NCBI GenBank assembly: GCA_963971425.1
Contig: OZ020521.1
Location: 9,875,519 to 9,939,518, forward strand
Direction: 5' to 3'
Length of the DNA: 64,000 nt
Source: Bryoerythrophyllum caledonicum
Lineage: Eukaryota > Streptophyta > Bryopsida > Pottiales > Pottiaceae
A model generated the notes under the pieces. The model did no database searches. It was not told the origin of the DNA and saw only the letters and a list, made by a program, of their open reading frames with translations. This document shows positions 526 through 62,040 of the stretch, piece by piece. The translations under genes and the position numbers were made by a program. The first letter of the stretch is position 1, and every line of letters begins with the position of its first letter.

Positions 526-744
526 CTACCATTCGGGGGCGGGGACGTCTCCGCCCTAGTGCCACGGTGGCGTGACACGTCCGTATGTGACGTGGCGATC
601 ACTGTAAAAATTTCTTACTTGCAAAAAGTTATTGGGCGCTCTTCGGGCAATCCGTCCGAACCGTCCGTCCGTGCCGTCCGGACCGCCTCTCCAGTTGTCC
701 TGTCCGATCACCTCAACGCGTCCGTTATGACAACCCTGCACCTG

Positions 745-1484: not shown

Positions 1485-1489
1485 AGTTC

Positions 1490-3488: not shown

Positions 3489-3522
3489 CTACGAGGGGTG
3501 TGCGCGCGCACACCCCTCGTAG
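3489..3522. repeat. 34-bp perfect palindrome
   Basis: Positions 3489-3522 are an exact self-complementary sequence with 17-bp arms: CTACGAGGGGTGTGCGC, then its reverse complement. The centre is an alternating CGCGCG run. It lies at the edge of the pyrimidine-rich tract. Its role is unknown. Confidence 0.9.
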
Positions 3523-4019
3523 GACTTCCCAAAGGTGCCACACATTGATATCCGTATTGATACCCTGAATTTGAAAACCCTAATTCCAAACCCTAAGTAG
3601 ATACCTCGGGTGATAACCGGTTGTGGGGCCCAATAATTCATACCCTCGTGGAGATAACCTCGATATTGATACCCCAAGTACCCTTGACCAAAATGATGTA
3701 GAGAATATCTCAACCAAAAATCTTTAGAAATGCTTGTTTTAGTGCAATTTGCAAGGAAAAAAAATTAAAGTTTTTTTGGTAGTTTTAACCGTAGGATCTC
3801 AAAAATGACTTATTAAGTAATATACTCGCAAAATTTCATAAAGTTTTACCGCACGGATTGAAAGATTATTATGTTTGAAGTAGAGAAAAAGCTCATTTTC
3901 ATCCCTGCGTTTTATGGATCAGCAGTCTTTGACCTCAATTGGTGTCCAATTTTGGCATTTCAAAGGGTCTCAACAAATTACCATAATGTTCAGCATGATG
4001 TTAGTTTGCTATATACCAA

Positions 4020-4800
4020 TTTTTAGAGGTAGACAAGGAGTGTAGCATATTCAAAAAAATTGTTCAATGAGTGGAGGTTCAATAATTCTCAATTCACGTT
4101 ATAATTTTTTGTGAACTTGATATTGTTTTGAATGGGAATCCAAATGGTCAATAAGAAGGTTTACATCACATAATGCCGTAGGAAAAATCAAAAGTGAATC
4201 ATACGAAGATCTCAAAGATTTATGTAGAAAGGTAGAAGTTTTTTTGGTACCATGGCCGAAAATGTGTGACAATGTGTGAAAATAATTGACTTGGATTAAT
4301 ATGCTATTTCACCAATTTAGAACTAACAACATGATGAACACAATGGCATTGGATTTAGATCTTGTGTAGTGCAACACTTTTTAGAGGTAGACAATGAATG
4401 TAGCATATTCAAAAAAAATGTGCAATGAGTGGAGGTTCCAAAATTCTCAATTCACGTTCTATTTTTTTGTGTAATTGATATTGTTTTAAATGAGAATCCA
4501 AATGGTCAATAAGAAGTTTTACATCGCATAATGCTGTAGGCAAAATCAAAAGTGAATCGTACGAAGTTCTCAAAGTTTTATGTGGAGAGGTAGAAGTTTT
4601 CTCGTACTCTCCCCGAAAATGTGTGACAATGTGTGAAAATAATTGGCTTGGATTAGTATCTATTTCACCAAAGAATTAACAACATGCTTAACACGATGGT
4701 ATTGGATTTAGATCTTGTGTAGTGCAAAAGTTTTTAGAGGTAGACAAGGGGTGTTGCATGTTCAAAAATATTGTGCAATGAGTGGTGGTTCAAAAATTCT
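4020..4800 (+). repeat. tandem repeat, ~355-bp period, 2.2 copies
   Basis: The block starting TTAGAGGTAGACAA occurs at 4023, 4381 and 4734 (periods 358 and 353). It is followed each time by GTAGCAT or GTTGCAT and CAATGAGTGG. The first two copies are full length and clearly alike throughout, sharing AATGTGTGACAATGTGTG and GATTTAGATCTTGTGTAG. The third is cut off after about 70 bp, where the large ORF of member A begins. The segment just upstream (3787-3865), in reverse complement, shares a block with the TTAA-bounded elements at 17134 and 33735: ATCCGTGCGG, then GATCCTACGGTT. Confidence 0.8.
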
Positions 4801-4862
4801 TATTCCATACTAATAGTGACTATCGTTTTGTAATGATATACAGGTTTTTTGAGTGTTGCGTT

Positions 4863-7800
4863 ATGGCACCACCAAATATTGATAGAATCTGGGAGAGCCA
4901 CGGCTGGTGGATCGCAGAAGTGGATGAGTCGAGCGCCTTCTTATGGGTGACGGATAATCCCTTTGAGCTGGGGAAGCGTACATCGGCGTTGGGAAAGAGT
5001 TTTGGCAAAATCCAAGCAATCACTCTTCGACGTGATGATATGGTATACGTTACATGCGTAGTGGGTTCAGGTCAATCGGAGGTGAAGACTTCTCTTTCGA
5101 AGAAGTTGCTTTTGGCACCTGTCCCTTTGAATCTTCTTCAAAATCCAGGTCAGGTGAAATTCCTCAAATCCTTGCAGACGTTTTGGTTGAACATCTCTCT
5201 TGCGGTACGTACTGCTAGACACAACAACGTCTTAGCCTGTTTAGCGTTATCACCGGAGATGGTGCTGAAGGCTAAGAAGATTATGGAGGAACATATTAGA
5301 TATGAAGCATTTCGGGAGAGGGACCCATCACGTGCGACAACTCAAGCTCCACCAGCGGAACCAGAAGAAACAGAAGTTTATCGAATTCTTGCTGAGCCGT
5401 TGCAACTGGATTGGCGACCACTGGAGGAGGGGAGAAGAAGTGGAGGCCAATATCCCACCACAACTTCTGAGGTACAGACATTACCGAATCCTCCATTAAC
5501 GAGTAGACGCCCTACGAAGAGGCCACGGCGTGTTGACAGTGGTGTAGCTTCTGGTTCAAGAGAAGGCCCATCAAGTCTGGATCCAAGTGGGAGGAGGTTG
5601 ATTGCGAGAAGTATAAGATCGGGTGGCAGGATTCCTAAGTCGGGGCTCAGGACGCCTGATGGTCATCGTAGGGCCCCTATATCTACACCGGGAGATTTAG
5701 CTGATTTGTCAGCCATGGCGCCGGAGGAAGAAGATTTTCACAACCTTCCAGACAGTATACCAGAGGATTTTGAAGACAATGCGGAGATACCACAGGATCT
5801 TCCAATTCCAATGAATTTAAAAGCACCAGTGCCTACAACAGAGGAGATTGCGAAAGGATCAGTGTGGGGGAATTTTGTGTTTAAGGCACACATAGACCGC
5901 ATTGTCTCTATGGAGAATCCGGAAACCAACCACCGGGTTTTATCACAGAACAGGGTCATAGAAGTATTCAACCGCTTACGAGACCCAGAATCCGCGACTC
6001 GGGTGAGTAGATTGGTACTTCGACCGACCAGATACATCGTGCATACTACCACCGATGATGGTGTCGTTGAGAAGGAAGAGCTGCCATTTCCGTTGGTAGG
6101 TACCGCACGAGAGTTTGAGCGCATGTTCATTGCACACGGGAGTGCTTCTGCACAGGGTGCTATGGGATCCCAGTATTCTTGGCTTCAAGATCATATCATT
6201 TGGGAACCAGTGGATGGGCAACACATAGTAGCAGCTTGTAAGTTTGCACAGCAGCAGTGGAGAGATGGTACTATGCCTTTAAACGAGTATCTGGACACGT
6301 TTGAGCGGCGGGAGGCCTCTTTTGTGGTGTATGATGATCGTCGCTTTTACATTGAGAAGTCTGCGCGGATCAACGTGGCGGAGTTCCAGAGACATTCATA
6401 TTCTACCATGGAGGAGGATTTGAGGAAGATCCGTCAGATTTGGGATCTATACGGGAGGCCTGATAGCACACTACGTGCGGACGATGCACGCAGGGCTGTT
6501 GCTTTGGTGAGTGAGGCAAGTGCAGTGCATAAGTTGCCCAAGGGGGATGGAGTTGTCACGGTGAAGAGGTTGGCCAAAAATATGGAGGATCTGACCAATC
6601 ATGCATGGAATCCGAGCAATGACTGCTTCGAAGCTATCATTCAAGTATGCAAGGACTACGAAGACGGCATTCTCTTTTACAGCAAGGAGGAAGAGGACAA
6701 GTGGAAGGACATGGCGAGGAAGAAAGAGTTGGATCCAAATGTGGACGTACGACCAACAAGAAAGGAGATGACCGAGAATTGGTTGAGGCCGTTAGGTAGG
6801 GTTCCGATTCCATATTATCTTCGGTTGGCAAAGTCTGCTGCAGCGAAGCCGGTGACGGAGGATGGAGTAAGACCTCGTCAAGCATACTACTTCGACGGTG
6901 TAAAAGACAAGAATCCACATCCTCGTACGATTGCCGGTGTTTGTGACCGATATCAGAGACGAGAAGCTGTGATCAATTCCATCCGTTGGTTGATGGTGGA
7001 GAACAAGGAAAGTACACCTGATTCCATGGAGGAGTTCTTCCGTATCCGTGTAGGGAAGTATTTTCCGAGGAGTAACGCACAACTTGATACGTTTGGGAAG
7101 CTTTTGAATGCTACCACGAAGAAAGCTTGGACTGCTCCTATGCGGGGGAAGGTGTCTAAGTTGGAAGACATAGACTACCTCATTCCTCCTTCCATCAGGT
7201 TTCATTATGGTGACATTGCAGTAGGGGGGAATGGATACATTGAACTGTCCGTGGATGTGGGAGGACATGCTACTGCTAATTGGAAATGGCAGATGGAAGT
7301 AAAGAGGCCAGGCCAGAGCGACACAGAGAATCTTCTTCCGATTCGGTGTAGAAGAGGGTTATTCCGCACCGACTACATAGAGTTGGGGAAACCATGTTCG
7401 TGGGTGATTGATTGTCGACGTGGCGGTGGGAGGCATGGAGATGGTCATTGGGGAGACGCCCAATTATCCGCAGCTTTTGCACAGCTGTCATTATGGATGG
7501 CAAATATTGAACGATGGAACGTCATCTTCTTATTACCAGCGGCCGTGTATGCCAACGAAGACTTTTTCACGAAGGTGAAGCTTCCAGAGGGATGTACTAT
7601 GCGACGTGGATGTTGGGCATTTGATCCAAACTCGGTTAATCCCTATGCTCTCGATTTTACAGAGAATGGGCGTATGGAGCAAGTAGTACAACCGATTGGC
7701 GATGTTGTGATTTGTATGCAGCACCCTATGGGTACATCTCCTGGCCCGAACTATGTTTCTGGAGATGTTCCACTTCCTCTTGTTTTCTTGGATCACTGGA

Positions 7801-8828
7801 GTGAGGCACGCCAACCCTCTGAAGTTGATTCACTTGAGAGATCTTCTTCAGAGCTAGCAAGACTAGTGGGCTCATACTTGCCCCGTGGTTGGGATTTAGT
7901 GGCGTGTAACATATCTACGGCCATTCCCACGATCCTTGAAGGAGATTTCCAGGGATCTGAGGTTTTCATCATTGACGATTGTACAGACAGAGTTTCATTT
8001 CTGTACAATGAGTTGTCCGACAATTTTCAAGGACAACTGTTGGTCAGGACTGGTGGAACAAGTATTGGTTGCAACATCGTACCTGAGACCGAAGAGGCGG
8101 TTGGTAGAGTGAGGAATGAAGACGACAATGAGGATGGAGGTGGTTTACATGAGAGATTGCCACGTTCAGGTACCACTGAAGATTTCTCATCTCGCAGTTG
8201 TTCAGACGCCGATGAAGATGGAGTGAACCAGTCTCCTCCAGGAGAGAGGATTCCATCAACGCAGCGGGCGGTGGGAGATACTTCAGGGGAGACGTCTGCA
8301 ACACCTACAGAGATGATGCAAGATACTGGTGTAGTGGATGTTGGTTTGGCGGCAGGGGCAGGAGGGGGGCGTACATTTGATGGTCCTAGGTTGGAGATGG
8401 AGGAAGAAGAATTGGATTCATTGGAATTTTTTTCGATGCAGAGGAGGATTCCACAGCCTTCGATGCCTTCTCAATCACAGCCTGTATCGGAGACACAAGA
8501 GACGTTCGGAGGTACTCAGAGTGATACCGGACGAGGTTTGCCTTCTGTTCCAAGATCTAGCGTATCCGAGGACATCATTGCATTTCAGGGGGCCTTCTCG
8601 TTAGAGCGAGAGATGTCCTTCAATCGAGAGGATGGCTTTTTCTACAATGATGATAGGGTAAGGCATACGCGGGAGGGTGTTTCTGGCAATTACCGATACG
8701 TTGAGTGTGCGTCCATTGGCATCGAAGGTGTGGGAGATCGTCCAGTGGAGGATCATGAACTGTCCGCTATGGTAGGTAGCGCCATTGGACACGTGGAGGG
8801 AGTCGTTCCGCCAGAAGATGAGCTCTGA
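4863..8828 (+). CDS. ParB-like / degenerate DNA N6/N4-methyltransferase fusion protein (member A)
   Basis: Single uninterrupted reading frame of 1,321 codons. I start at ATG 4863 (protein MAPPNIDRIW) because the in-frame codons from 4782 lie in the tandem repeat, and a splice-acceptor-like ATATACAG precedes it. Residues ~180-320 are low complexity. Residues ~329-460 resemble a ParB/DGQHR fold: KAHIDRIV, then RLVLRP, then PVDGQHIVAA. Residues ~845-1045 fit the permuted N6/N4 methyltransferase order: SWVIDCRR where DPPY is expected, a strand WNVIFLLP, then a Rossmann-like segment RGWDLVACNISTAI with acidic FIIDD. The DPPY and glycine-rich motifs are eroded, so catalysis is doubtful. The C-terminus (~1060-1321) is acidic and low complexity. 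The same architecture occurs in the ten-exon gene at 44401. The lack of introns suggests a retrocopy or a transposon-borne gene. The long open frame shows it decayed little or is under selection. The domain assignment is by eye; the family is not one I can name. Confidence 0.6.
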   Translation: MAPPNIDRIWESHGWWIAEVDESSAFLWVTDNPFELGKRTSALGKSFGKIQAITLRRDDMVYVTCVVGSGQSEVKTSLSKKLLLAPVPLNLLQNPGQVKFLKSLQTFWLNISLAVRTARHNNVLACLALSPEMVLKAKKIMEEHIRYEAFRERDPSRATTQAPPAEPEETEVYRILAEPLQLDWRPLEEGRRSGGQYPTTTSEVQTLPNPPLTSRRPTKRPRRVDSGVASGSREGPSSLDPSGRRLIARSIRSGGRIPKSGLRTPDGHRRAPISTPGDLADLSAMAPEEEDFHNLPDSIPEDFEDNAEIPQDLPIPMNLKAPVPTTEEIAKGSVWGNFVFKAHIDRIVSMENPETNHRVLSQNRVIEVFNRLRDPESATRVSRLVLRPTRYIVHTTTDDGVVEKEELPFPLVGTAREFERMFIAHGSASAQGAMGSQYSWLQDHIIWEPVDGQHIVAACKFAQQQWRDGTMPLNEYLDTFERREASFVVYDDRRFYIEKSARINVAEFQRHSYSTMEEDLRKIRQIWDLYGRPDSTLRADDARRAVALVSEASAVHKLPKGDGVVTVKRLAKNMEDLTNHAWNPSNDCFEAIIQVCKDYEDGILFYSKEEEDKWKDMARKKELDPNVDVRPTRKEMTENWLRPLGRVPIPYYLRLAKSAAAKPVTEDGVRPRQAYYFDGVKDKNPHPRTIAGVCDRYQRREAVINSIRWLMVENKESTPDSMEEFFRIRVGKYFPRSNAQLDTFGKLLNATTKKAWTAPMRGKVSKLEDIDYLIPPSIRFHYGDIAVGGNGYIELSVDVGGHATANWKWQMEVKRPGQSDTENLLPIRCRRGLFRTDYIELGKPCSWVIDCRRGGGRHGDGHWGDAQLSAAFAQLSLWMANIERWNVIFLLPAAVYANEDFFTKVKLPEGCTMRRGCWAFDPNSVNPYALDFTENGRMEQVVQPIGDVVICMQHPMGTSPGPNYVSGDVPLPLVFLDHWSEARQPSEVDSLERSSSELARLVGSYLPRGWDLVACNISTAIPTILEGDFQGSEVFIIDDCTDRVSFLYNELSDNFQGQLLVRTGGTSIGCNIVPETEEAVGRVRNEDDNEDGGGLHERLPRSGTTEDFSSRSCSDADEDGVNQSPPGERIPSTQRAVGDTSGETSATPTEMMQDTGVVDVGLAAGAGGGRTFDGPRLEMEEEELDSLEFFSMQRRIPQPSMPSQSQPVSETQETFGGTQSDTGRGLPSVPRSSVSEDIIAFQGAFSLEREMSFNREDGFFYNDDRVRHTREGVSGNYRYVECASIGIEGVGDRPVEDHELSAMVGSAIGHVEGVVPPEDEL

Positions 8829-23185: not shown

Positions 23186-26100
23186 ATGGGGAAGTTGAGT
23201 GCTGTGAGTGGCGCCGGGAAGCGGGCGGTGAAGCGGCTTCTGGAGCCTCCCATCGATACACTTTCCAAGGTTATGCTCGTTGGCAGACCCAATGTCGGAA
23301 AATCAGCATTGTTCAACAGGTATAGACGCCCATGCTCCTTTGGTTAGGAGGAACAAATTTAGCATTTTAGTATGGATCCATCTTTCATTCTTCGAAGCTT
23401 CCCGTTTGATTCATTTGTGCGTATTCTTGAACCCTTAAACTCTTAAATTCCTTAAAAAACCTTGGATTGGTTTAAGGGTACGAGCTCCTTGCAGCTTTCT
23501 GTATTTTTAGTATAATTCTTTGATTGACCTGAATTCAGCTTTTATTTATGCTTCTGGTGTAAATCTTTATGGTTGTAGCATTTATGGCCATCAGATTTGT
23601 TTGTCAAGTCCATAAGATTCCCCCTTCTTTGATTTATTTTAGTACTCTTTGCTCGCTCTAATAGTTATTAGATTTATAGAAGAGTCTGGTGGTCTTATCC
23701 TTCAATTCAGGCAATGGAAGCGAAAAGGGTGATCCTTAAACTCAAGTCTAAGTAGTTATAGTCCTCTTTGAGAGTGAGAAAGAGTTTGCAGGTTTTAGAT
23801 CGATTGAGAATTTTCTAGAGCTGATATTTAGTTCTTCACTAAGATATAAGAGGGGCATGTTTTTTAAACTTCGGCTGACTTTCTATTTCATGCAAAGTAA
23901 TTGGAGATGGTATAGAAGAGTCCCTTATGACATTGCAACAGATTCAAAGATGCATGATGTGATTGAGTATTTGACTTGCACGAGGACACTGCTTGGATGA
24001 ACGATAGGTTGACAAAGAGACGGGAGGCGCTTGTGTACAACACTCCAGACAGCCATGTCACACGCGACGTGCGAGAGGGCGTTGCGAAGCTGGGTGACAT
24101 GCGGTTCCGTGTCATGGACACGGCAGGCCTGGAGACAGATGCTGCGTCAGAGACCGTCCTGGCCCGGACTGCAGGCATCACAGCAACGGCTCTCCGGGAC
24201 TGCCAAATCGCTCTCTTCCTCATCGATGGCAGGTATGTGTATATATGTATATCCATCCAGAACCACCTCCAGGTTTACCCAGCCTTAGTTTTATTGAACA
24301 TAAGTAGTAATTTACTCACATGCATGTTGTGACAATTTCGAGTTCGAACTACATGGCTTGATCTAACGGGAATAATAGTGTTCTTTACGTGCTGAAGAAG
24401 TGAAGTTTGGCTTGCAGAGCTGGGGTTCAACCGCTGGATGCCGACGTGGGGAAGTGGCTTCGCAAGCTTGCGCCGAATGTGCGAGTGAAGGTCCTTCTTA
24501 ACAAGGCTGAAGGAATGCACGATGATGCAAGCGGCTCGCTGATGGCCGCCATGGGAGAGGCTCACAGTCTGGGGTTTGGAACCCCTGTGGCCGTTTCTGC
24601 AGAGTCCGGACAGGGTCTGGCGGATTTGTATGAAGATTTACGACCGTGGGTGGAAAGAGCTCAGGAAGAGATGTTAGCCAAGCGAGCAGGTAACAGTCGT
24701 GTTCTTTTTTTATACCAATTGTCACATTGGCCACTCCCTGTTATTTTAGTGGCCATATTGGTCAATTGTTTGTTTTCTGGGATTGACCAATTTATCCATC
24801 ATCGCTGCTATCGTACTTTGGTTTTGTAACTTGAATAACTCTTTTTGTGTTCAGCTGCAAAGTTACGGGAAGAAGATTATTCTGCTGTTCACGAGACTGA
24901 ACTGGAGCTTCGTGGAGATGAACGTGCTGGAAGTGGACCTGAGAACGAGATCGGTCTCAAAACAGTGGGAGACAACTTTGAAGAGGACATGAACTCACAT
25001 GAAATTGACGAATTGGAGACCAAGTTGAATTTGAAGGACGACGAAGAGAACGAGGTCTTGTTGAGTGAAGCCGAATTGAAGAAGGTGCCAATGCAATTGG
25101 CTATAGCCGGGCGTCCAAATGTTGGCAAGTCCACGCTTCTCAACTCACTGTTGCTCGAGGAACGCGTGCTAACTGGGCCGGAGCCTGGCCTGACTCGTGA
25201 TTCCATTCGAGTGGAATTTGAGTACCAAGGCCAGAAAATATTTCTTGTAAGTCTCAGTGCAATCTCCTTACTCTTTATGATCTGTTCCCGGTTCACAATT
25301 CATCCTATGTTCTTCGTTGATAGTGGTGTTTGGCAGGTTGACACTGCAGGGTGGATGCAAAGGTCAAAGTTGGCGGAGGGGCCTGCAGCTTTGAGTGCCA
25401 TGAATGCACGCCGCAACGTTCAACGAGCTCACGTTGTTGCACTTGTTCTGGATGCTCAAGAGGTATTACTACATCAATCACTTTTCAGAAAGCATTTAAT
25501 CCTCAGTATGGCCAGGGGTCACAGAAACTCAGTTGTTAGATTGGTTCATGAGCAGAGATATAACTGCCCGTGGTTACGCATCAGGAGTTCAGTCTATCCT
25601 TGTTGTCAATCGTTTTGTTGTTGACCCTAGGCAGTGGGATCTGAATCCAGATAGCACAAACTAAGAAGAGCATGCGGCACACAGAAGCAGCTCTTGCGCA
25701 GTGGGTGGTTCAAGAAGGTAGGGGCCTTGTTGTCATCGTCAACAAAATGGATCTGCTGGCTGGAAGTGATCAAGCCCGGCTTAGATCACTTGTCATGAAA
25801 GCTGTTCCAGAAGAAATCCAGAAACTCCTACCACAGGTGCAACCCACTCCTGTTCGCTCTTGTTTGTTGCTCTTTATGATTTTAGTGATTTTATGGATAT
25901 GTGGACCTTACCCTATGTCTATTTCAGATCACTGGAGTGCCAATAGTATTCGTCTCTGCCCTGGAGGGTAAGGGCCGGTCTGCTATAATGCGTCATGTCA
26001 ATGAAAGCTACAGATTGTGGTGTGTGCGGCTGCCAACTGCCAAACTTAATCGCTGGCTGCGTAAGGTGTGTAAAAGAACGATGCCTTGTGTCGGTTAAAC

Positions 26101-36784: not shown

Positions 36785-38350
36785 CTAGGAAGTCTTCTGG
36801 GCACCCTTATTCCGCCGGCTCCTACACCTAGAGGATTCGTCCACAACGACCCTTGCCTTCTTTGTCTTCTCCGGAGACGGTTCCGGTACCTGGCTCTTGC
36901 TTCCAGAAGCTGGAGTAGTCGGCTCCCGGTCGTCAGTGGGTGGCACTACTTGCGTCGCCTTCTCTGTTGTGCCGGCCGAGGTTCCCATTATGCCCTTGAC
37001 GTTGGAAGTCTCCTCCGGAAGACCCTTGGACAGTGGGGAGGTTGTCTTCCGGAGGGTGGAGGAGGGAGAGAAGGAAGGAAGCCGAAAAATTGGGGGAGTC
37101 TCTTGGAAGAGCGTTGTCGGGAGCGTGTCCTTCCAAGACTTGAGGGTCTTCGTGCTAGGCAGAGGGAGGTTATTCCAGCTCATTGGCGACGACGCATCGG
37201 GAGTACTCAGAATCTCCTTATCCTTCTCCTTCCCCTTCTCCTTTCCCTTCCCAGAAGCCCCCGATGCTCTACTCGATGGCCCGGCTTCATCTGGTGAGGA
37301 GCCGAGGTCGATTGGTGAGGTCGGCGCCACGGGTTCCTCCCAGACCACATTATTGACCAAGAGTTGCATCTCGCTCCAAGTCTTCTCCATCTTTCGACCG
37401 TGATCCATGAGGAACCGGATGATCTGTCCTCGATTCATCTTCCCTTCCTTTTCCAATCGTTTGTTGAAGAAGAGGCTCCGGTTGACCGTGTCAACTAGAA
37501 AAACTCAGCGCCTCCTAAATTTCTACGAGTGCTTGTGCCAATGCGGTGGCTCTGTCCTCCGCCTCCTTCTGGGTTGCTCGTGCTTCCGCTACTGCCGCTT
37601 TTGCCATTACCAACTTCTACTGAAGCTTTGCAAGCGCTTCGATCAAAGGGGCCTGTTGCTCTTCCAATACGCTAAACTGGGCTTGCACATGTTGGAGATC
37701 CTTCAACCGGGGAAGGATATCCTTCACCTCATCTACCTTTAGCTTGGTCAAGATATCGTTTACGAGCACCATACTATCCGCAATGAATTGGTTAAGCAGC
37801 GCGGTCCGCTAGGTCACGTGCTTAAGCAACTCCATAATATCTCCCCCCGGTCTTCCGTTGAGTATCGGAGGATCTGCCTTAAGTACTCGTTCCGATTGTG
37901 TGGAAGGGCCGGCAGACTCTAGACTAGCGGAGGTCGTCTCCAGCTGAGTCAATTGAGCTGCCCTTGGTTCTGCATCCTGTTGCACTAATCAACTTTGCTT
38001 CCGGGTTCGAGGGGTTTCGAACGGAGGCAACTCCGCTACTATGGGCTCGTCTTCAGAGTCGGTTTGTGGTCCGCCATACTTTTGAATGTTCAAAAATTCT
38101 TCATACCCATCTTGCTCCACCGGTGTCAACAACTCGTCTTTCACATAGAAGTGGGTCAGGTAAGACGGGAGCGGCGATCCGGTCTTCTTTGTCCGGTAGA
38201 GGCCCTTGACCAACCTCCCAGCAAGATTGTGCATCAGCGATGCCCAATCGATGGTGATCTTCCCTCGCATGGCCCCTAGGAAAGTGCACGCCCACTTGGA
38301 CACCAGCCTTTTGGGCTTCTCCGGATGGAATATCGAGTTTAGAAACCCTA
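36785..38350 (-). pseudogene. retroelement structural-protein remnant (plant transposon-protein type)
   Basis: Two minus-strand blocks. 38303-37989 encodes a segment with KITIDWASLMHNL, LVKGLYRTKK and LPSYLTHFYV, like the domain often annotated as 'putative plant transposon protein', then an acidic stretch. 37456-36785 (223 codons) starts MEKEGKMNRGQIIRFLMDHG, is rich in S, P, T, K and G, and ends in a basic tail (CRSRRNKGAQKTS). Between them (37460-37985) no single frame stays open. A GAGCAGGGA repeat lies just 5' (38398-38455). No enzyme domain is visible. Confidence 0.5.
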
Positions 38351-38913
38351 CGACTATCCGTGCCTAGAGATCACTAAGGTCGAGCGAAGCTAGTATGTGA
38401 GCGGGGAGCAAGGAGCAGGGAGCAGGGAGCAGGGAAAATGGAAGCAGAGAGCAGGAACTTGCAAAAATCTCTATTGGGATTTTAAAAATTCGGTTGTTAA
38501 AATATAAAAATCATGTAACTTATATTTCTTTAAAAATTAGCAAAAAGATGCCTATGACCGTGTACCACAGGGGGTCCTAAACCGCGAATAAAATATGGAT
38601 TTGCACATTCAGAGACGTTGAATCTGGTTTGAAAAAATTCAAAATTTCAAAAGTTTGAGGGGATTGGAATATATTATTCACTACTTTATTTTTTTACTCA
38701 ATTGGTGAAAAGATAAAATTATAAACTTGAATAAGTTGCACATAAGCTACGGAAGATTTCAATAAGTCGCACAGTCGCACATAAGCTACGAAAGATTTCA
38801 AAAACTTGGTAGTGGCCCTTTTCGTCGCACTCCATATTCAAATATAACCCAACAAACTTAATACACAATTTCAAACCCTACAGTATAAAGGAAACTACAA
38901 ATTACTTTCTACA
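38351..38913. repeat. GAGCAGGGA minirepeat and AT-rich spacer
   Basis: 38398-38455 is a run of GAGCAGGGA-like units. Related runs lie next to the remnants at 20473 and 49334. The rest is AT-rich, with two near-copies of GCACATAAGCTACG at about 38736-38790. Confidence 0.55.
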
Positions 38914-41900
38914 TCATGGTGATACGTGGCATAAAACCCCAGTTTCTAGAACACGCTTCACTTCATTGAAGCTAAAGCTCGGGGCATGCATAAACACATC
39001 AATTGCGGAATCCAAACTACAGATAACAGTAAAGATGTAGTAAAGATGCTTGCATTGGGTCCATTGTCCTCGTTTTCCTAAGGACTTTGTCAACATCTCT
39101 TTGAAGTATGGACATGAACAATCTGGAAATGAACCTACAGTGATCAGGTACTGTTGAGAATTGGGAACTATACCGGATTCTAGAGTAACGATGCATCCAA
39201 ATCCTGGATGAGGTACCATGGTCACTTGATGAATGCGACACTTGAGGGTGACAGCTGATGCACAATTGTTGAGATGTTTTGTTGTAGGAGCCCTCATATT
39301 CCTGCGAATACTCTTCCCAGATCTGATCTTAGGATATTCATCAGGGGAATCCATAGTGGAATGAAAACTCATATCAAGGGTAGGACCTTGACTACCAAAA
39401 AGTCGTCTTGGAGACATCGCAACACGCTGAGGTAGTTGAAAACCTGCATTCTCGAGTGCCAAAATTTCTTTCTTCGAAAGATTAGTTCCAAGTTTAACTG
39501 GCCAGACACTTGGAACATCAGGTTTCGAGAGGACCCACTTGCGTTTGGTGCCCTTCACACAACGCTCGATGTCGTCATTGCAGAAGAAGAATTGCATGCG
39601 CTCGACCTTGTTCTTCTTATAATTGTCCATCATTCCAACATAGGTAGGAGCAGGAGTGCTTTTGTTGTCTTGCACAATTCTTGCAATACACTTCCTCTTG
39701 GTAACTGCCTGTAATGCAAAACATGCTTTTGCAGAAGTCTTTGGCAATCTAGCAATGTGCCATTGCGACTTATTGCATACAGTCTCCTGAACGGCAGTAG
39801 TATGGCTTGAAAGAGATCTCAATGGAGATTGAATCACCTCTGTTGCCATGGGAACGGTTTCTTCTTCAGGTACGGAAGAAAGAAACTCCTCGTGAACATT
39901 ACTCATACTAGGTGCACCCGTACGAGCTCTGGATGTTCTGGTATTGATTCTTGGATAGGAATAGTTTACCTTGTCAGGCCGATGGGACTCGTGCTCGTCA
40001 CCTAAAGGCATGTCGGGCTTGCGTTTTTGACTACCAAATACTTCTTCTCCTTCCATGTGGGGATGACGAGTGCAAAATTCATCAGCTCCAGGCATTTTTG
40101 CTATTGCCTCGTTGAGAACCTTGGGGTTTCCAGAGCGACAGACAGAGCATTGGGCAACCCTTAATAGCAACTCCTCCTTTCCAGGCCCATTGCCTCCACG
40201 TTCCCCTTTAAGAAACTGATAATACTTCACCACTTGCATAAATGCCCTAACAAAGTCATCCACAGTGGCCACATACAAGTCATTTCTTCGATTTCCGGAC
40301 TGCTGGAGCCATTTGTTGTGGATTGTCTCTGCAAGATTGCATGAGGGCATCTCGGCAAGCTCAGCCTCATTAAGATTCTACACACATGCCATGGAATGAA
40401 GGAACAAAGGTGTTATTCAACAAATAACATGGAAATTGATGAGTACGAATATTTTGGCACATAAATGAATGGTTTCATAAAACATGTATATGGCTTTCGC
40501 TTACCAATTGCATAAAGCCACCCCACTAGCGGTATCGAAAATGCCAAAATGCTAGCCACAGCTCCAAAGGACTCAAGCTCTCCCCCGTTGCGGCACCTGA
40601 AGAATGCCACCATCCTACGATGGCGTGGTAGCGAGTTTCGGCCTCATTAAATGTTGTTGCATTCTTATATTGCTTGCAAAGCTGTCGATGTTGATCTTGG
40701 AGGTCAGCCTTGATGTCGGCCTTCGTATGCTTCTCAAGAGATTGGGTCCAATGGAAGAGGCATGTTCGTTCTTGATTGGCCATTGGGATGGATGCATCGC
40801 CACTTCCATAGATGACCCGCACTGCATTCCAATTTGCTTGCGCGCTATCAGCCATGAATCCTTTGAACTTAGGATCCGGTATGTCATGCCTAGCTGCTAC
40901 TGCATTTAGATTCTTCCAAAAAATGCATTGAGCAGCGGCATCCTCAGACTGCATATCACAAACCGCCACAGTCATAACCCTACACAAAGTTGAGTCGTAC
41001 ACATGGCAAGCCATCGTGGTCCACTGCTTTACACGCTTGACATGGTCAAACATCAACCATGCGTCTTCGAGGTCGCCGGTGGGCTGCATTCGTCTTACCA
41101 AGTCAACTCCACTTCCTGGCCCCACTTCAGACATCTTAAAGACAAATACCTTATCTGAATCAGATCCTTGGCCCGGAAATTTATTTTCCTGAATGAAAGC
41201 CCAATTGCTGCAACCCCTCAATTTTGTGATACTATCCATGATGCCATACCGCCGTAGGTACTTGAAACTTGTGACCTGATTTCGAATACTAGGTGAATTG
41301 ATGGACTTGCACATATCCAAAACAGGTACTAACTCCTCCAGGTTCAAGGTCTTCGACGGAACATCTTCAGGTCGTAGAAGAAGCTCTCCAAAAATATCTT
41401 TACTTGCCTCCAAAACAATTGCAGAGGTAGTAGCATTTGGGGTCCTTTCAACATGCTCCCCAAGAAGGGCATTGGTCCTCTCGATCAACTCCCTATAGTC
41501 ACCAACTTTGACAGGATGTCTATGAACCCCTAAATGCACACATGCGCGAGTCATAATTGAACTGCCAAACACATAGTATATTCTAGAATCGCAGCTAGCA
41601 AGGCAAGAAGGGGGTGTCTTACAAATCTTACAAACCAGTGATGAACCGTTCGGTGGAAGACAACCAACTCCAAACTTTGCCGAAGTCGAGCCCTCCCACT
41701 CCGTACTGTTGATGGAAGATGTTCGATGGACACGAGTCAAGTAGGCACAATTGCGGTTATTGCATTGGAGATGGCCCACGCAACTGGATGTGCGAAATGT
41801 CAGTCCCGCGTCATTCTTGATATGCGAGGTAATTGTCTTTGTCCAAGCGTGGCCGTCGTATCGCTTGTCCATTCCTGTCATCAACTTCGCTTGCGAGAGC

Positions 41901-42664
41901 ATTCCAGAGGCTTGGACGGGAGGTAATTCAAAAATGACATCCTCATTGAAATCAGGGGGTAGACTATGTACTCTTTGAATACAAACAGTACTATAGTCAA
42001 GCTTCTTGAGCATGTTTCTAGATCCTTTTCCATCACGTAACTGCTTTAGTGAGTCAATAATACTAACAGAGTCACTAAAGCTCGCAGGAGAAGATCCACT
42101 TCTACCCGAGATGCGATCAACCGATGAATCTGGCCTTGAGCAATCAACGATGGTACGCGACAAAGGAATCTTACGAGCAGGAGAATCAATATCGGAGTCA
42201 TCACTTATGATAGTGACAAAGTTAGAATCAAGCTCAACCTTTACTTCAGAGAGTATGGGAGCATTTGAACAATGAGGAGTACGATCCTCTGCGGATGGGT
42301 TCTCAGCAATGTAACTTACGCCATAGACTCTGAATCTACCTGGCTTAAGCAACCACTGCTTCTCATTATCAATATATGTATGATGCTGACCTAGCGTATG
42401 AGTAATGCGTCCAGAGGAACCATCAAACATTTCTTCGTCGAGATACAAAGAGTCTGCTTTCAAATGAAATCTCAGGCTCAATCGTGACGCAGAAATATGA
42501 GCAAATCCATCTTCAGAGAGAGGGATTGTGAAAGGCAAACTATCAAGAGAAGCGCGTATGACAGCCATAGTGTAGTGACACTCATCTATCTCCTTTGCGG
42601 CCATTCCGCCAGAGGTACTATCACACAATTGCAATCTGGAAAGGACTCTAGAAGTCAATGTCAA
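38914..42664 (-). CDS. Mutator-like transposase with GCM/FLYWCH-type and SWIM zinc fingers; one in-frame TAG
   Basis: Two exons, 42664-40505 and 40377-38914, joined by a GT(AAGC)-(TGT)AG intron in phase 0, giving about 1,206 codons. N-terminal part (~residues 1-240) is variable. At ~270-345 a Cys-rich DNA-binding segment, SCVGHLQCNNRNCAYL, resembles GCM/WRKY/FLYWCH fingers. A MULE-type catalytic region follows, with LMFDHV and, later, FMADSAQANWNAV and ERTCLFHWTQSL. The C-terminal SWIM finger is CSC...CKH, then HLYYIF. In exon 1 the frame meets TAG at 40526-40528, seven codons before the donor; reading continues WGGFMQL and then NLNEAEL in exon 2. The gene is therefore intact but for one nonsense codon, one base change from a CAG or TGG codon. 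ATG at 42601 (MAAKEIDEC) is an alternative start. It may be a transposon gene or a domesticated one. Its upstream region is shared with member B. Confidence 0.75.
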
Positions 42665-43313: not shown

Positions 43314-44208
43314 AGCGTCGGTACCGACGCTAAATATTTACCACCATTCGGCTGGAATATTTACGACACTAAAGTCGATCTTTCATTCAAAGTTTATCGT
43401 TGGTATGTGAGTTGAGGCCTATTCTTGAGCTGATTCGTCTGGAAGATGTTGTGAGAGTTGAATGCACTTCAACCATCCAGGGCGTTTAACCAACGTCGGC
43501 ACCGACGCACCTGCCCTCCGGATTTATTTCAGTGAGAAACTCCATAGATTTATCGCGTTTGATTCATTTGCTGTTTCATTGAATGAGTATATCTCTTTCT
43601 AAATATGATCATCTGGTTATTTAGTTAGCTATCTTATGATAATTAGTGAGCCTCATATGGGCTCGTCGGTACCGACGATCTTCCTTTGCAGATCTGAAAT
43701 AACCAAGAAATGAATCATGATTACAGAAAATGCTTTAGAGGGTCCAAGTTCTCATTAATGTCCCGTCAAGATGGTGATTCTGCTTTCTTTTATGAATATT
43801 TTGTTGAAATGAATTGATTGTAATAAGCACCACAATGATCGTCGGTGCCGACGTAGTCATTTTCTGTTTAGTTCATCACAGTAATGTTTGTTTGATTATC
43901 AAATTATACTTGATATATTGGTCCATATTAGCCTAGAATTATTGTACTTTGGTCGATCCCTTCCTTTGTGAGCGCGTTCCTGAGTAGATCCTGACTGCGA
44001 GTTGCCAACAAATCCCCCCGGAAGCTGTAGCAGGGGTGCCGTCCTCTCCTATGTGTGGCGACCATAGTTGACGCCGCTGCTGGCAACCGTGATGGTGCCT
44101 GGGCTTCCGCCGTGCTATGGGAGCCCGTTCTTCGAGGGGGCGCTGGAGTTCGTGATAATTGTGTAAAGAGTATACGGCCGCTCCCGGAGTAGCGTCGGTG
44201 CCGACGCT
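43314..44208. promoter_or_regulatory. five phased palindromes CGTCGG-YR-CCGACG between two divergent genes
   Basis: Sites: 43314-43331 (AGCGTCGGTACCGACGCT, perfect 18-bp palindrome), 43494-43507 (centre CA), 43663-43678 (perfect 16 bp), 43840-43853 (centre TG) and 44191-44208 (18 bp, centre TG). The 6-bp arms are identical in all five. Core starts are 178, 170, 176 and 353 bp apart. Sequence between the sites is not repeated. They fill the region between the start of the SWIM gene (42664, minus) and of member B (44401, plus). They look like binding sites for a dimeric DNA-binding protein. Confidence 0.75.
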
Positions 44209-44400: not shown

Positions 44401-47400
44401 ATGGACCCATCATCATCTCAACGGTCTACCCGATCACCCGAATTCTCTGGTGGCACAAGTTCACATCCGGACGCGGAGGTTTCGGTGGCGGATGAGGTGG
44501 ATTGTCAACTACATCTTAACGAAGATGAGCTTCGTCAACACCAAAGGGTAAATTGTATCTTTGCCATAGACAGCCTTCGCATTGCACCCAAGGCTTCCTC
44601 TCGCCTTGATGTGCCGTTGTGCAGGCTTGTGTACATGCCACTTGTCCGACCCACACTGGAGTCGGATATTAAGCGGTTGGAGGCTGAATTTACTCATGGA
44701 TATCGCCCAGGATCTACCGTGTTTTATGTTTCTCTTTCCAATGACCTCGGTGAGGAGTCCTTTGTCAGCGAGGAGGATAGAGGAAAATGGGGCCCATTAT
44801 GGAACGCAGCCAATGATCGCTTTGAGTCAAATCTTTTGGCTACTCCCCAGTTGAGCTTCTTGAGGAATCGTAAACTCTTCATATGTGATGGAAATCATCG
44901 GTTCAAGGCATGGATGGGATATATTGAAAGAATGCACAATGCTGATGTAAATTGGCACATCTCCGTGGATTGCATTTGTTTGGATATCAAAGGCAGTGTC
45001 GGATTGGCTCTTCATGCTATGCACGATATTAACAGGTGAACATCATTCACTGAGTCCTTGCAATATTCATTCGGTACTTGCATCCTGGATTCATTGTTTG
45101 ATTGTTGATTCTATTGTCCCTATGTAGAGCCACAGAAAACTCACACGTCAAGACCAACTTCGTGCACATACTCCATCGAATTAAGGCGATTGGAAGTCAA
45201 CCACTTGAATCATTCAAGGATTTGTTGACTACAGAGGATTATCACAAGTGCTTGGCTAATCCTGGGAGAGGGAAGTCATGGTATCCATTAACAGTCGATG
45301 TCTTCGTCTCTCTACTCTTTCGGGTCAGTATTTTCACTTTTATGTTTTTCGGTTGTAAATGTATGCATTTATTGGTAATTTCTTATATTCTTACATATAA
45401 ATTATATTTGATATGGAATTATACCATTTCAAACCTCTTTACCAATTGCTGTTGGACCTCAGCAAGAGATTGCTGATGCATCAGATGAAGCTGCTAGAGT
45501 GTACCACGAAAATACTCCTGTGGAACTTCGGATTGACTCTGAGATTACCACTTCAATGCGAGGTGCAGCAAAGGCAAAAATTCAGATGTACAAGGGTCAG
45601 TGGTCCAAATATTCGGCCGTTGCAAATCCAAAGCTTGGTGACCAATTCCTTGAAGAGGTAAAAATGATTCTTTAATATATTTGTTATTTCATCTGAAGTT
45701 ATATACCAACATAGAGTGATTATTCAAAATAATTTTTCTCCTTATAATTTCAGATTACAAAGCATTGGAGTTCGAATTCAAAGCCAGAGATGACTTTGGA
45801 TAAGTTACAGTTGCTTGCAACTTCCAATGTCCCATCCCATTTCAAAGTTCGATGGCTTCAGTGGTGGAATTCTAGCAATGCCATTAGGGAAGCTCTCCAC
45901 TTTCCTCATAAAGGATTCAGCGATAAGGAGTTAGACTCGTGGTTAAACAAGGCATCCTTTTGGGCCGGAGTAAGTTCTGTTTAGCAAATTTCTTAATTTT
46001 TATGAATTAAGTTCATCATATTTTGGAATCGGTTCGTTCATTAAATGCTTTCAACCCAAGTGAGTAAGTTAATGTTTCAAAATTTGATCATTGTAGCTTG
46101 AAGTCGCCGTATCTGAGGAGTTTGAGAGTGTACTTAAAGCCGACAAGCTGCCTCTGAAGTTGGACCTACCGGAGAGACCTCGATCTCCACAAGAGTATGT
46201 GGAAGCATCAAGGGTTAAACTTTGGGTGCATGCCTTTCCAACACTCTTAAGAAGCAAGACCACATTCTCAAGGTCAAAAGAATTTAAGAACCACAAGAAT
46301 ATTGACTTGGCTGTGAAGCGAGTTGTTTGGAGGTGAGTGGGGTATTTTAGTGATATCAATTACAAGTCATTGCCTTTAATTTATTTATCTAAATGTGTTT
46401 TTGCAACTTTCAGGTATTATATGAAGGAGCTCTTTGTTAAGGGTGCCCTTGAGAGACATCAGCTTCCATTGTTTCTTCAGACATGGATTGATAAAAATTC
46501 ATCGCATTGTATGTTCACTCCTACTCAGCTTCAATCGTGATCAATTTTGCATTTAAATGATGGATGTTGGTATCTCGATTGCACGAAGCCTTTTTGTCCA
46601 TCTAAGGAAGAAGCGGCAATGGCTTCTCATGACAAATCCGAGGTATCTGGAGTGGTTGGTGCCACCACTCAAACCACTGTTGACCTTAGTGATGAGGATA
46701 TGGACACCGCGGGCGGGAGTACATTATCTGGGAAGGAGCAGTTGAAGGTCCTTTCTAAACGCGCCAAGGACGCTGAGAGAGAAGATCAAAGGAAAAAGAA
46801 AGAAGCAAGGCGGGCTGTGGAGAAAGCTCAAAGGGCTGCCGAATTAGCTACTGCGAAGGCAAAGGAGGCAGAGGCAAAGGCGGTAGCTCTTGGCTCAGCA
46901 AGATCTGGCACTATAGGAGATAGCCCCTCAACTGTTGGTGTGAGTCCAACCTCCTCAGATTCTTTATCTCGTCTGCATTTGAAGCGAGATGCTACATTTG
47001 CAGGGCTTTCAATGTCACGGTTGGTTCAAGGTACTTCCCATGCACTTAAAGACATTGTGCAAGATACACAATTTGTCGATGAGTGCATTATTAATGCCTC
47101 GCTGCTGTCCATTGATGCACACCTTTCAAAGTTCAAGTCTTTTCCATCGGCATGGACAAACTTGCAGGCCTTCGTTGATAAGGTACTTTATTTTCATTAT
47201 TTCTGTTATATTTTTGTCCACTCATTAATTGATAGTCGATCTAATTTCTATTTTTATTCCAGCACATGCTTGATCGCCCTCGACATTTCTCAGGTCGCCC
47301 AGAGAAGACTTCTGGTGTTGATTTGATGGTTGTGGATATTCCGGAGAACTTGCCAGTTCCAAATATTTCCACGTCTATTCCAGCGTGGAATGTTTTGGAT

Positions 47401-48746
47401 GAAAGCTTTGTGGATTTGATTTTTGACTTTGCCAACAATCACATTCATGACGATGGCGGCTTACTTCTCTTTCATTCTGATGATCAAAGTCTGAACTCTA
47501 AGTTGAAGGGCTTTATGAAAGCTTATCATTTCAAGATTTTCAAGGAGTGGATGGGTGTCAATCGATTGCGTTTGACAAGTGCCAAGGATCCATCAAAAAC
47601 TGTAAGTACCCTAAGTTATACAGATATTTTAATTCTTCTATTTGGATTTTGAATGTTATTAGTCAGTTCGTTTTTTAATGTTTCTTTCTTTGCAGACACT
47701 TCGATTTTGCATCAAGTTGTTAGTTCGAAATATCCCGAACTCCGCACCGTCTTTGTTTTCTTTGAAACCAGTTGACGAGTTGGAGGCCGTTGGAATCGAC
47801 ATTGTGGCTGATGATGTGCTGCACAATTTCGTTACAAAAGACTCACAACTTATTCGGGACACTATTCCATGGAGAGGAGCACGGGAGAAGGACCCCATTC
47901 TTCTTCAGATGCTTATTGAAGCGAGTACTCATGTTGGAGACATTGTGCTGGATTGTACTGCTTCAACTGGTATGTTGTCATTTCGTTACATATTTTGATA
48001 TATAATCTTAGGTGTACTTGGGATATTTTATCTAATTCATTGAACTGGCATTTTTATTTACAGGTGCCTCCATTCATGCTTGTCGTAAGGCCGGTCGCCA
48101 TGTTGCGGCGTTGGAGGATGATGGAGAGATATTTAACTCTATTTTGCAGCCGCTTGTTGTCCAAAGGGTGAGCGACGGCTTGAAGAAGCAACGCATTCAT
48201 GCAGGGCAGACAAGTGTTGATGATGATGAGGAGATGATAGAGGAAGACGAGCCTATGATCGATATTGTTCCACGAAACCGATTCTGTGCGTAAGTCTTGC
48301 ATCTTGAATTTTAATTATTAGACTAACCATTTTTCATGTAATTTTTGTATATTATTCTGATCTTCATTTGGTTTTGTGAATTTTGTTTCAACAGCTCACG
48401 TGTGAGGACACCTAGAGATCGACAACGCATCCTTTCTGATCATTTGTTTTTGACTCCGGAGAAGTCGTTTCACTTACCAGTATATGCAGAGGCGTTGGCT
48501 CAAGCATCTTTATTGACCTCACCAACTTTTATCGCTCCATCTCGCTTCACTGGAGATCCTAGAGTACTAGAATTTATGGATGTGTCAGCTGTAGAAGATG
48601 TTCCGGTTCTACAGCCTTCTATTGTGAGTGGAGATGTGAGTTGTGATTACTCTTCGCAGTCTTCTACGAGTATTAGTTCATTATCTCCTCATGAATCTAT
48701 TACTGCTTTCGACGACGGCACTTCAACTTCATCTTCTTCTAGGTAG
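44401..48746 (+). CDS. ParB-like / degenerate DNA N6/N4-methyltransferase fusion protein (member B); one in-frame TGA
   Basis: Ten GT-AG exons: 44401-45035, 45128-45323, 45463-45657, 45754-45969, 46097-46332, 46414-47182, 47263-47601, 47696-47969, 48064-48289 and 48395-48746; 1,145 codons. ParB-like region (~residues 40-180): FAIDSLRI, then LFICDGNHRFKAW, the DGxHR motif. A long helical middle and a K/A/E-rich coiled coil (~580-660) follow. The methyltransferase-like domain (~768-990) has VDLMVVDIPENL where DPPY is expected, GGLLLF, REKDPILLQMLIEA and GDIVLDCTASTGASIHAC, then GRHVAALEDD. This is the motif order of the N4/N6 family (DPPY first, SAM loop last). DIPE replaces DPPY and the loop lacks one glycine, so catalysis is doubtful. 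The tail is S/T-rich. Exon 6 contains TGA at 46538-46540 (codon 535), one CpG transition from CGA; reading stays open after it. ParB-methyltransferase fusions are known from phages and bacteria. Transfer followed by intron gain is an inference. Confidence 0.65.
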
Positions 48747-49333: not shown

Positions 49334-49819
49334 TTATGAATCCACGCTCCCTGCTCTTCTTTTCCCTGCTCCCTGCTCCCCGCTCTCTGCTCTAGGCTCA
49401 TGCGACAACTTTCCCCCGCTAAGGTCACTCATATTGAAGCCGTCGTTTGGATCATTGTGACGGTTGAACTCCCATTCAAGAAACTCGTCGTTTCTTTCCA
49501 GCACCTTCACCGCTCCATCCCGGAAGCCATACGTTTGCTTCCACTTTGCTGCTGTCCACCTCTCCGGATGTGCTCGAAGGCTACCATCATATTGATTGTC
49601 CAGCCCTCCGATCAACTTTATCACGAGACCTTCCTCCTTTGTGCCCCACGCCACCTCCATGAGTCCGGCGCACACTATTTCCTCCAGGAAATGATAAAAG
49701 ATCTGAACGTCCTTGTTTTCCATAGCGTATTCTGGAGTCACCCTCAGGATTGGTGGCCCTCCGGCTGTAGTATTCTTCACCTTCAGCCTTCTTCCGGCCT
49801 GCTCTGCACCTCCAGCCAT
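49334..49819 (-). pseudogene. retroelement structural-protein N-terminal remnant
   Basis: 161-codon minus-strand frame starting MAGGAEQAGRRLKVKNTT. It contains a compact segment (VQIFYHFLEEIVCAG, then VIKLIGGLDNQYDG, then WTAAKWKQTYGFRDG) and ends in translated GAGCAGGGA repeats (AESGEQGAGKRR). The same repeat and a TCCGGA-rich flank (50080-50310) link it to the remnant at 36785-38350, so it is probably the N-terminal part of the same element family. No homology beyond that is recognised. Confidence 0.45.
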
Positions 49820-61354: not shown

Positions 61355-62036
61355 GTTATTCGTTGGTTGGTTGTTTTGCTTGGTTGGTTTTTGGCTACCC
61401 GTTACATAGTGTCTACCCTCGAAAGGGGGAAGTAGTTCCAGCTTACTAATTCCCTGTCCGGTGGGAATGGTCCTAGTAGTGGAACAAACATACACTTTAT
61501 TCACGCCGGTCCCCTATTCGGGAACCGGCCTTCTTCTTCTTCTTCTTCTTCTTCTTCTTCTTCTTCTTCTTCTTCTTCTTCTTCTTCTTCTTCTTCTTCT
61601 TCTTCTTCTTCTTCTTCTTCTTCTTCTTCTTCTTCTTCTTCTTCTTCTTCTTCTTCTTCTTCTTCTTCTTCTTCTTCTTCTTCTTCTTCTTCTTCTTCTT
61701 CTTCTTCTTCTTTCCTTCTTCTTCTTCTTCTTCTTCTTCTTCTTCTTCTTCTTCCTTCTTCTTCTTCTTCTTCTTCTTCTTCTTCTTCTTCTTCTTCTTC
61801 TTCTTCTTCTTCTTTCTTCTTCTTCTTCTTCTTCTTCTTCTTCTTCTTCTTCTCTTCTTCTTCTTCTTCTTCTTCTTCTTCTTCTTCTTCTTCTTCTTCT
61901 TCTTCTTCTTCTTCTTCTTCTTCTTTTCTTCTTCTTCTTCTTCTTCTTCTTCTTCTTCTTCTTCTTCTTCTTCTTCTTCTTCTTCTTCTTCTTCTTCTTC
62001 TTCTTCTTCTTCTTCTTCTTCTTCTTCTTCTTCTTC
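61355..62036 (+). mobile_element. LINE 3' end with expanded TTC tail
   Basis: 61385-61530 matches the LINE 3' block at 56320-56470 (CATAGTGTCT, GAAGTAGTTCCA, TTATTCACGCCGGTCCCC). It continues directly into a TTC tract. It is flanked by TTCTAAATTGTT at 61343-61354 and 62037-62048, a likely 12-bp target duplication. Confidence 0.75.
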
Positions 62037-62040
62037 TTCT
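61531..62040. repeat. (TTC)n microsatellite, ~510 bp
   Basis: Almost pure TTC/CTT units with a few one-base interruptions (near 61711, 61755, 61813, 61852, 61925). It gives long poly-Leu, poly-Phe or poly-Ser ORFs on one strand and poly-Glu/Arg on the other, all artefacts. Confidence 0.98.

Follow-up and report, generated by a model that had tools for sequence, protein, structure and literature searches.

Palindrome arrays upstream of accessory genes in a DNA-transposon family of Bryoerythrophyllum caledonicum, a candidate family-specific recognition tag

Results

A palindrome array inside a DNA transposon

The window, i.e., the whole 64-kb stretch of DNA analysed here, contains two divergent genes with an array of five palindromes between them (Table 1): a two-exon gene on the minus strand, and an accessory gene on the plus strand that encodes a ParB-like and a methyltransferase-like part. 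The array lies, together with both genes, inside one DNA transposon of ~11 kb, as is evident from the inverted ends, the flanking duplication, the reading frame obtained by joining the flanks, and the recurrence of the ends across the genome. The divergent promoter setting described in an earlier sequence-only reading of this DNA stands, but that reading overlooked that the array and the two genes share a single transposon.

Table 1 Features of the transposon and its palindrome array (positions in the window)
Feature	Position	Strand	Basis and remarks
Left target-site duplication CTAAGGTC	38374..38381	+	Same 8-mer at 49419-49426
Left terminal inverted repeat region	38382..38452	+	Inverted-repeat arms and genome-wide matches of the end
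Transposase-like gene, exon 2	38914..40377	-	Spliced reading; CxCx19CxH SWIM-like finger by eye
Transposase-like gene, exon 1	40505..42664	-	Spliced reading; CxxH motif in RTCLFHW; in-frame TAG near 3' end
Palindrome 1 CGTCGGTACCGACG	43316..43329	.	With flanks, perfect 18-bp palindrome
Palindrome 2 CGTCGGCACCGACG	43494..43507	.	Motif scan
Palindrome 3 CGTCGGTACCGACG	43664..43677	.	With flanks, perfect 16-bp palindrome
Palindrome 4 CGTCGGTGCCGACG	43840..43853	.	Motif scan
Palindrome 5 CGTCGGTGCCGACG	44193..44206	.	Start 208 bp before accessory-gene ATG
Accessory gene	44401..48746	+	Splice model: 10 exons, 1145 codons; in-frame TGA in exon 6
Accessory gene exon 1, N-terminal DGNHR (ParB-like) domain	44401-45035	+	Family alignment
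Accessory gene exons 7-9, methyltransferase-like domain	47263-48289	+	PF01555 match under cut-off
Right terminal inverted repeat region	49346..49416	-	Inverted-repeat arms and genome-wide matches of the end
Right target-site duplication CTAAGGTC	49419..49426	+	Same 8-mer as at 38374

The inverted-repeat arms are 55 nt long (38398-38452 and 49346-49400) and 80% complementary. A genome-wide search with the first 71 nt of the element (from 38382) scored 40 matches, 39 of which begin at base 1, and a search with the last 80 nt likewise scored 40. Since 29 of these 40 right-end matches end two bases short of 49418, the target-site duplication is possibly 10 bp long and contains one mismatch (left from 38372, CACTAAGGTC; right from 49417, CGCTAAGGTC) instead of 8 identical base pairs; a second copy, on contig C2, is alignable up to 49418. 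Duplications of 8-11 bp are typical of Mutator-like elements (MULEs) and are also found for hAT and KDZ elements, and both versions of the duplication, read from the window copy alone, are within the MULE size range. Joining of the outer flanks, i.e., restoring the empty site, gives one minus-strand frame with a single TAG just past the junction, as expected if the element inserted into an older ORF. The two parts of this split ORF occupy 37989-38303 and 49427-49819 on the minus strand, with the TAG just past the insertion point, and the ORF may belong to a repeat itself.

The minus-strand gene is transposase-like as judged by eye; it has no significant Pfam match, and none to MULE or SWIM profiles. 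Because each of the two genes has one in-frame stop, the window copy is probably not autonomous now. Elsewhere in the window, an ORF at 24845-25624 with NVGKSTLLNSLL...TGPEPGLTRD resembles, by eye, an EngA/Der-type GTPase, in keeping with a host among plants or algae; an uninterrupted 1348-aa frame of unknown kind is found at 4782-8828, and a CTT repeat of ~170 copies (97% matching) at 61530-62040.

An exact motif scan confirms the five occurrences of CGTCGGNNCCGACG, with invariant CGTCGG/CCGACG arms and the centres TA, CA, TA, TG and TG in order, and finds no further exact site elsewhere in the 64-kb window, which confines the array to 43316-44206. When up to two mismatches are allowed, the window yields 6 matches, compared with 0.39 on average and at most 3 in 100 shuffles; the count is thus far above chance. 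The description of five exact CGTCGG-YR-CCGACG sites confined to this region in the sequence-only reading is therefore borne out, as are the extension of two copies to palindromes of 16-18 bp (copy 3 and copy 1, respectively) and the start-to-start spacings of 178, 170, 176 and 353 bp, which we measured to be the same. The DNA between the sites shows no clear homology (identity 0.59 compared with 0.55 for shuffled sequence, three pairs). A sixth site in the 353-bp gap (353 = 2 x 176.5) was sought and rejected, the best candidate agreeing in ~9 of 14 letters by eye. This gap, between palindromes 4 and 5, differs in length among sister copies, and within it the stretch 43960-44190 has 59% G+C, compared with 39% before it, and may have been inserted later or captured. 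Among the array-bearing loci of subfamily A, 21 in number, the counterpart of palindrome 5 is located between -179 and -218.

The accessory protein

The DGNHR motif encoded by exon 1 is invariant in 26 of 26 aligned family members and recalls ParB boxes. The sequence-only reading designated the gene as ParB-like, and the label is weak: membership in the ParB family was sought with a Pfam scan of exon 1 in the 26 members and in the PDB, and neither gave a match. An AlphaFold single-sequence model had a pLDDT of 33.5 and was unusable. Exon 1 is under purifying selection, with dN/dS values of 0.33 among nine A loci (36 pairs) and 0.28 among five B loci (10 pairs); dS is saturated in A-B comparisons.

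The C-terminal half of the protein matches PF01555 (N6_N4_Mtase) weakly (E = 5.4e-5), the 23.7 bits being below the Pfam cut-off of 26.7, and the best PDB match of this part is MboIIA (E = 0.023), the catalytic DPPY of which is aligned to DIPE in the window protein. Motif IV, which reads [DNS]PP[YFW] in active N4/N6 DNA methyltransferases, is also replaced in seven other loci (L035-L041), by DIPE, DMPD, DMLD or DCQE, and by DVPE in L076, a relative from another record (see below). Because the catalytic motif is replaced in every copy that was read, i.e., in the window, L035-L041 and L076, the methyltransferase-like domain is less likely to be an enzyme than a scaffold that reads DNA or senses SAM.

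The VANC domains DUF1985 and DUF287 had no Pfam match in the window ORFs, in exon 1 of the 26 members or in the C-terminal half, most of exons 2-5 lying outside that scan. An Rfam search gave no match. A peptide pattern for viral relatives fitted 38 stretches, none of which was confirmed, and searches for phage and plasmid relatives returned five matches at E 2-8 in one case and none in the other.

One palindrome type per subfamily

Relatives of exon 1 are abundant in the 437-Mb, 894-contig genome, with at least 150 scored among 1770 first-look candidates. To 62 of the regions upstream of exon 1, a motif-free search was applied that reports the most repeated 6-N2-6 palindrome within up to 1.9 kb. 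Three or more copies of one palindrome were present in 48 of the 62 regions; first-order Markov shuffles, 60 for each region, never gave more than two. The arms found were CGTCGG (30 labelled loci), CTTCGG, CCTCGG, TCTCGG, AGTCGG, CCTCGT, TGCCGT, TGCCGG and TGCCGA. The sequence-only reading, which had proposed a single array for one neighbouring protein, has to be widened in this respect, as it overlooked the other palindromes of the other subfamilies. The common core of these sites, YCG-N4-CGR, occurs 346 times in the 62 regions compared with 88 for YGC-N4-GCR.

The remaining 14 regions did not reach three copies. Two of them (L035, L036) have an array farther upstream, and L041/L042 are one broken, overlapping place with two sites. 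Two sites of the TGCCG- or CGCCGG-kind are present in each of L060, L062 and L066, and one in L063; in L054, three CTTCGGCGCCGAAG sites are found in the 2.7 kb upstream, L071 has CTTCGG-type sites as seen by eye, and in the decayed A copy L025 two sites are present, both imperfect. For L048, L067 and L069 no explanation was found.

The palindrome arms differ between the protein subfamilies and track the protein tree. The tree of exon-1 proteins comprises 59 of the 62 loci (L041 and L042, the one overlapping place, and L048 being omitted), and arm labels were assigned to it by hand from the palindrome searches. On the 50 labelled rows, the nine labels need 8 changes, as few as nine states allow; when the unlabelled rows are counted as a tenth state, this rises to 11 against a shuffled mean of 27.7, and none of 200 shuffles was as low. 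Near-copies inflate tests of this kind, and a tree thinned to 28 rows again needs eight changes. CCTCGT arms are found in two separate clades. Since array and protein share the same DNA, this concordance is silent on which protein of the element would read the sites, and the transposase could do so.

Genome-wide counts and placement

Exact sites are strongly enriched relative to the same patterns read backwards: 211 against 46 for CGTCGGNNCCGACG, 300 against 0 for CCTCGGTACCGAGG, 173 against 4 for CTTCGGYRCCGAAG, 128 against 0 for TCTCGGATCCGAGA, 49 against 3 for CCTCGTYRACGAGG, and 36 against 0 for AGTCGGAGCCGACT (both strands, complete list). Placement relative to genes was assessed with 63 hand-picked gene rows on contigs C1-C3, classed by identity, and, for each pattern, the 50 sites listed first. 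Among the matches listed, 47 of 50 A-type sites are within 3.5 kb upstream of an A, B or C gene. The genome-wide scan that the sequence-only reading had proposed thus places the motif upstream of ParB-like genes of the same class, and its notion of a dimer-type site array in a divergent promoter region, with the neighbouring protein as candidate reader, is supported.

Exclusivity between palindrome and gene class is incomplete. For D2, 13 of the 50 listed sites precede a listed gene, which in every case belongs to the matching class, and 37 precede none. The CTTCGG set was split by centre into 20 sites with TG, CA or TA and 30 with CG. Six of the 20 listed D1 sites (centre TG, CA or TA) are upstream of a gene of the matching class and 14 of none, and one D1 site is within 10.5 kb of a D2 gene; for CTTCGGCGCCGAAG, the 30 listed sites divide into 8 upstream of a class-G gene, 3 upstream of an A/B/C gene and 19 with no listed gene in that position.

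The palindrome AGTCGGAGCCGACT was read from one locus, and 25 of its 33 other sites proved to be upstream of 11 other genes, all of them in the band of 57-63% identity to L045; the remaining 8 are upstream of no listed gene (64 of the 150 scored gene rows were used). All 25 gene-linked sites have the same orientation relative to the gene. Because the copies share descent, this recurrence is a test of the assignment of the palindrome and not of independent origin.

In six 9.9-kb loci, which span 4.4 kb upstream to 5.5 kb downstream of the exon-1 start and leave the far transposase end outside, 32 of 33 TCGG-NN-CCGA cores are upstream of exon 1. Measured from the exon-1 start, three D1/D2 elements have additional single sites at 9.0-9.6 kb on the upstream and 4.4-5.0 kb on the downstream side, which would fit a role at the element ends. 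Two inverted CTTCGG palindromes on contig C3 (G000, 8392769 and 8394112; L074 and L075) are 1.3 kb apart and alike in 25 of 27 bases, and may be the termini or arms of a related non-autonomous element.

In one accessory-gene subfamily (places such as C1:9572898, C2:27747154 and C8:6019322), nine copies have equal score and identity to the query, and identity over the exon-1 query reaches 100% at six places, the query's own included, which suggests recent transposition.

Constraint on the arms and origin of the arrays

In the one subfamily in which conservation was measured, the arms are kept, unlike the adjacent DNA and the spacing. Relative to the window's own copy as reference, arm columns are 97.4% identical in 21 of the 22 subfamily-A loci (the decayed L025 was dropped), compared with 81.1% for other upstream columns and 86.7% for upstream columns within 30 bases of a site. 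In the same 21 copies, CpGs are kept at 94% compared with 65%. None of 5000 random window sets equalled this conservation.

Arrays with recognizable tandem units provide a view of how such sites may arise. Units of 115 bp (L058), 120 bp (L050), 201 bp (L040) and 116 bp (L057) have mean spacer identities of 0.92, 0.94, 0.86 and 0.80, respectively, and across these young arrays the units of 115-201 bp are 79-94% identical. The L058 array (1116-2279) has a palindrome every 115 bp in 11 copies and that of L050 (629-1122) one every 120 bp in 5 copies; both read as arrays caught young. Spacers in L053, L061, L056 and L038 are close to the shuffled level, like those of the window. Taken together, the sequences read as arrays born by tandem duplication in which all but the palindromes then decayed, an origin that is not demonstrable for the window's own units, given the spacer identities of its three pairs.

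The ~176-bp regularity is a property of the window copy and its nearest relatives, and not of the whole system. Random placement equals the evenness of the window in 10 of 200,000 trials, for a statistic picked after the spacing had been seen, and the closest copies, L006-L009, have window-like spacing. Six other subfamily-A copies are without this regularity (0.138-0.272 compared with 0.016 for the window), spacings in sister copies being, e.g., 117-170-177-245 and 191-170-177-592. The nucleosome-like spacing suggested in the sequence-only reading is therefore rejected as a function of the array, because sister copies differ in spacing.

A relative in a second record

A collection of genome contigs gave 14 pattern matches, of which one was confirmed as a relative, namely L076 (CADCWO010000058.1, bases 511-4691). 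This 4.2-kb sequence comes from a contig that had been assigned to the bin of an uncultured Synechococcales cyanobacterium, and the identities of its exon 1 to the 14 best-matching copies are 35-42%. Because the accessory-gene relative has introns, L076 is probably eukaryotic DNA that contaminates the cyanobacterial bin, presumably from a second organism. Its layout matches that of the window, with a palindrome array, TCTCGGATCCGAGA at 24, 130 and 346, upstream of the accessory-gene relative, the ATG of which is at 552.

Discussion

The arrays, their constrained arms and the agreement between arm type and protein subfamily form a pattern that a dimeric DNA-binding protein encoded by a transposable element, together with its own array, would produce. 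We assign a probability of about one half to the reading that the array tags a DNA transposon of autonomous type for family-specific recognition, with a protein of the element itself as candidate reader, and the best candidate for this reader is the neighbouring accessory protein. In the proposed mechanism, the accessory protein would bind each palindrome as a dimer, and the many bound sites would load it onto its own promoters, where it would keep related copies transcriptionally accessible. The route would probably be by opposing DNA methylation or silent chromatin, i.e., anti-silencing or self-activation of the kind exerted by VANC on VANDAL elements. New specificities would arise when site-bearing units duplicate in tandem and then diverge.

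A more specific version, to which we give somewhat less confidence than to the general one, is that a catalytically dead ParB/methyltransferase fusion reads palindromes centred on CpGs (YCG-N4-CGR, the outer and central letters being variable) and that protein and array constitute a self/non-self code, with nine or more branches in a single genome, in a large and diversified class of eukaryotic DNA transposons. Such a code would perhaps read or protect the methylation state of the two CpGs.

Bacterial ParB-parS systems have clustered palindromic sites near the gene for a DGNHR/ParB-type protein, and the layout seen here is alike in this respect. A parS-like partition role, raised in the sequence-only reading, is nevertheless not supported: there is no match to a ParB profile, no partition context was seen, and the sites are dispersed with a eukaryotic transposon over a 437-Mb genome. 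Fungal DNA transposons reportedly carry TET/JBP dioxygenase genes beside the transposase, and thus share with the present element a gene of DNA-modification type in that position, however, the fungal gene encodes a demethylating enzyme and the gene described here a degenerate methyltransferase-like protein. We know of no target arrays in the fungal elements.

The closest working analogue is VANC acting on VANDAL elements of Arabidopsis. According to passages of PMC5735166 and PMC10398659, VANC motifs are located in the non-coding DNA of the element, have multiplied as tandem repeats and vary from family to family, and methylation of VANDAL elements is lost through the action of VANC. Both systems have an accessory protein encoded by the element and a short motif repeated, often in tandem, in the element's own non-coding DNA, with the motif, and here putatively the protein specificity, differing among related families. 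The VANC21 motif YAGTATTAY is non-palindromic and arrayed in one orientation (PMC5735166, PMC10398659), whereas the sites described here are 14-bp palindromes with a shared CpG core. Furthermore, VANC contains DUF1985/DUF287 in place of the DGNHR and methyltransferase-like parts, and the anti-silencing shown for VANC in those passages is here a proposed role.

With respect to the protein, the nearest counterpart is Sola1-1_Ec32 of Ectocarpus, in which a ParB-like domain and an N4/N6-type methyltransferase are combined in one protein of 1104 residues encoded on the strand opposite to the transposase (PMC12477816); for green and red algae, the same source cites Iyer 2011 and Petroll 2025. The window gene encodes a putative counterpart of this domain pair at similar size (1145 codons) and is likewise opposite in strand to the transposase-like gene inside an element with terminal inverted repeats, as is the case for the algal accessory genes. 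The protein differs by the loss of motif IV, and the arrays and their family-specific code, which are visible here, are unmentioned in the relevant passages of PMC12477816. Because accessory genes with ParB and methyltransferase parts have already been reported in algal transposons, the type of protein is not new; the arrays and the code were not found described. Titles and abstract openings of the papers listed by literature searches on ParB-type accessory genes, methyltransferases and palindromes in transposons contained no description of target arrays for a ParB-methyltransferase transposon protein.

Among the other explanations, self-marking or autorepression is the best placed, but we consider it unlikely. 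The protein would bind its own array and repress its element, or methylate it (N4mC/N6mA), and thereby limit copy number. An array that overlaps both promoters suits an operator, and Sola1-1_Ec32 has the same combination of domains and opposite strands in the passages of PMC12477816. However, the replacement of DPPY in motif IV makes catalysis doubtful, and the six places that are 100% identical over the exon-1 query suggest spread and not restraint of copy number.

A role of the palindromes in transposition, in which they would serve the transposase or the accessory protein in synapsis or end recognition, is a weaker alternative still. En/Spm-like elements have subterminal motifs, and two observations point in this direction, namely the solitary sites that three D1/D2 elements carry at a distance from the internal array, upstream as well as downstream of exon 1, and the inverted pair 1.3 kb apart. 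The window's five sites, in contrast, are all internal to the element, none being in the terminal inverted repeats, and the cores in the six 9.9-kb loci are upstream of the accessory gene with one exception, within the limits of loci that exclude the far transposase end and of a palindrome search that covered only the upstream side of the 62 loci.

An origin of the array as binding sites for host transcription factors, acquired by the element to serve as its enhancer, is improbable. CpG-centred palindromes are common among transcription-factor targets, and the divergent promoter position would suit such sites, however, a host factor predicts one motif, and the arms vary by subfamily, are altered on both sides of the palindrome and match the protein tree. 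That the arrays are functionless remnants of tandem repeats, as the tandem structure of the young ones might suggest, is very improbable, given that the units of the window are unrecognizable and yet the arms are 97% conserved over 21 subfamily-A loci, with their CpGs kept.

If the reading of the array as a family-specific recognition tag is correct, these elements would represent a second, independently built case, after VANC, of transposon self-recognition by sequence, and the role of ParB-methyltransferase accessory genes in transposons would be explained. The family would furthermore provide a large natural set of protein-site pairs, with nine arm types on one tree and several hundred exact sites, from which the specificity code would be learnable from sequence, and its accessory proteins would be compact readers for CpG-bearing palindromes.
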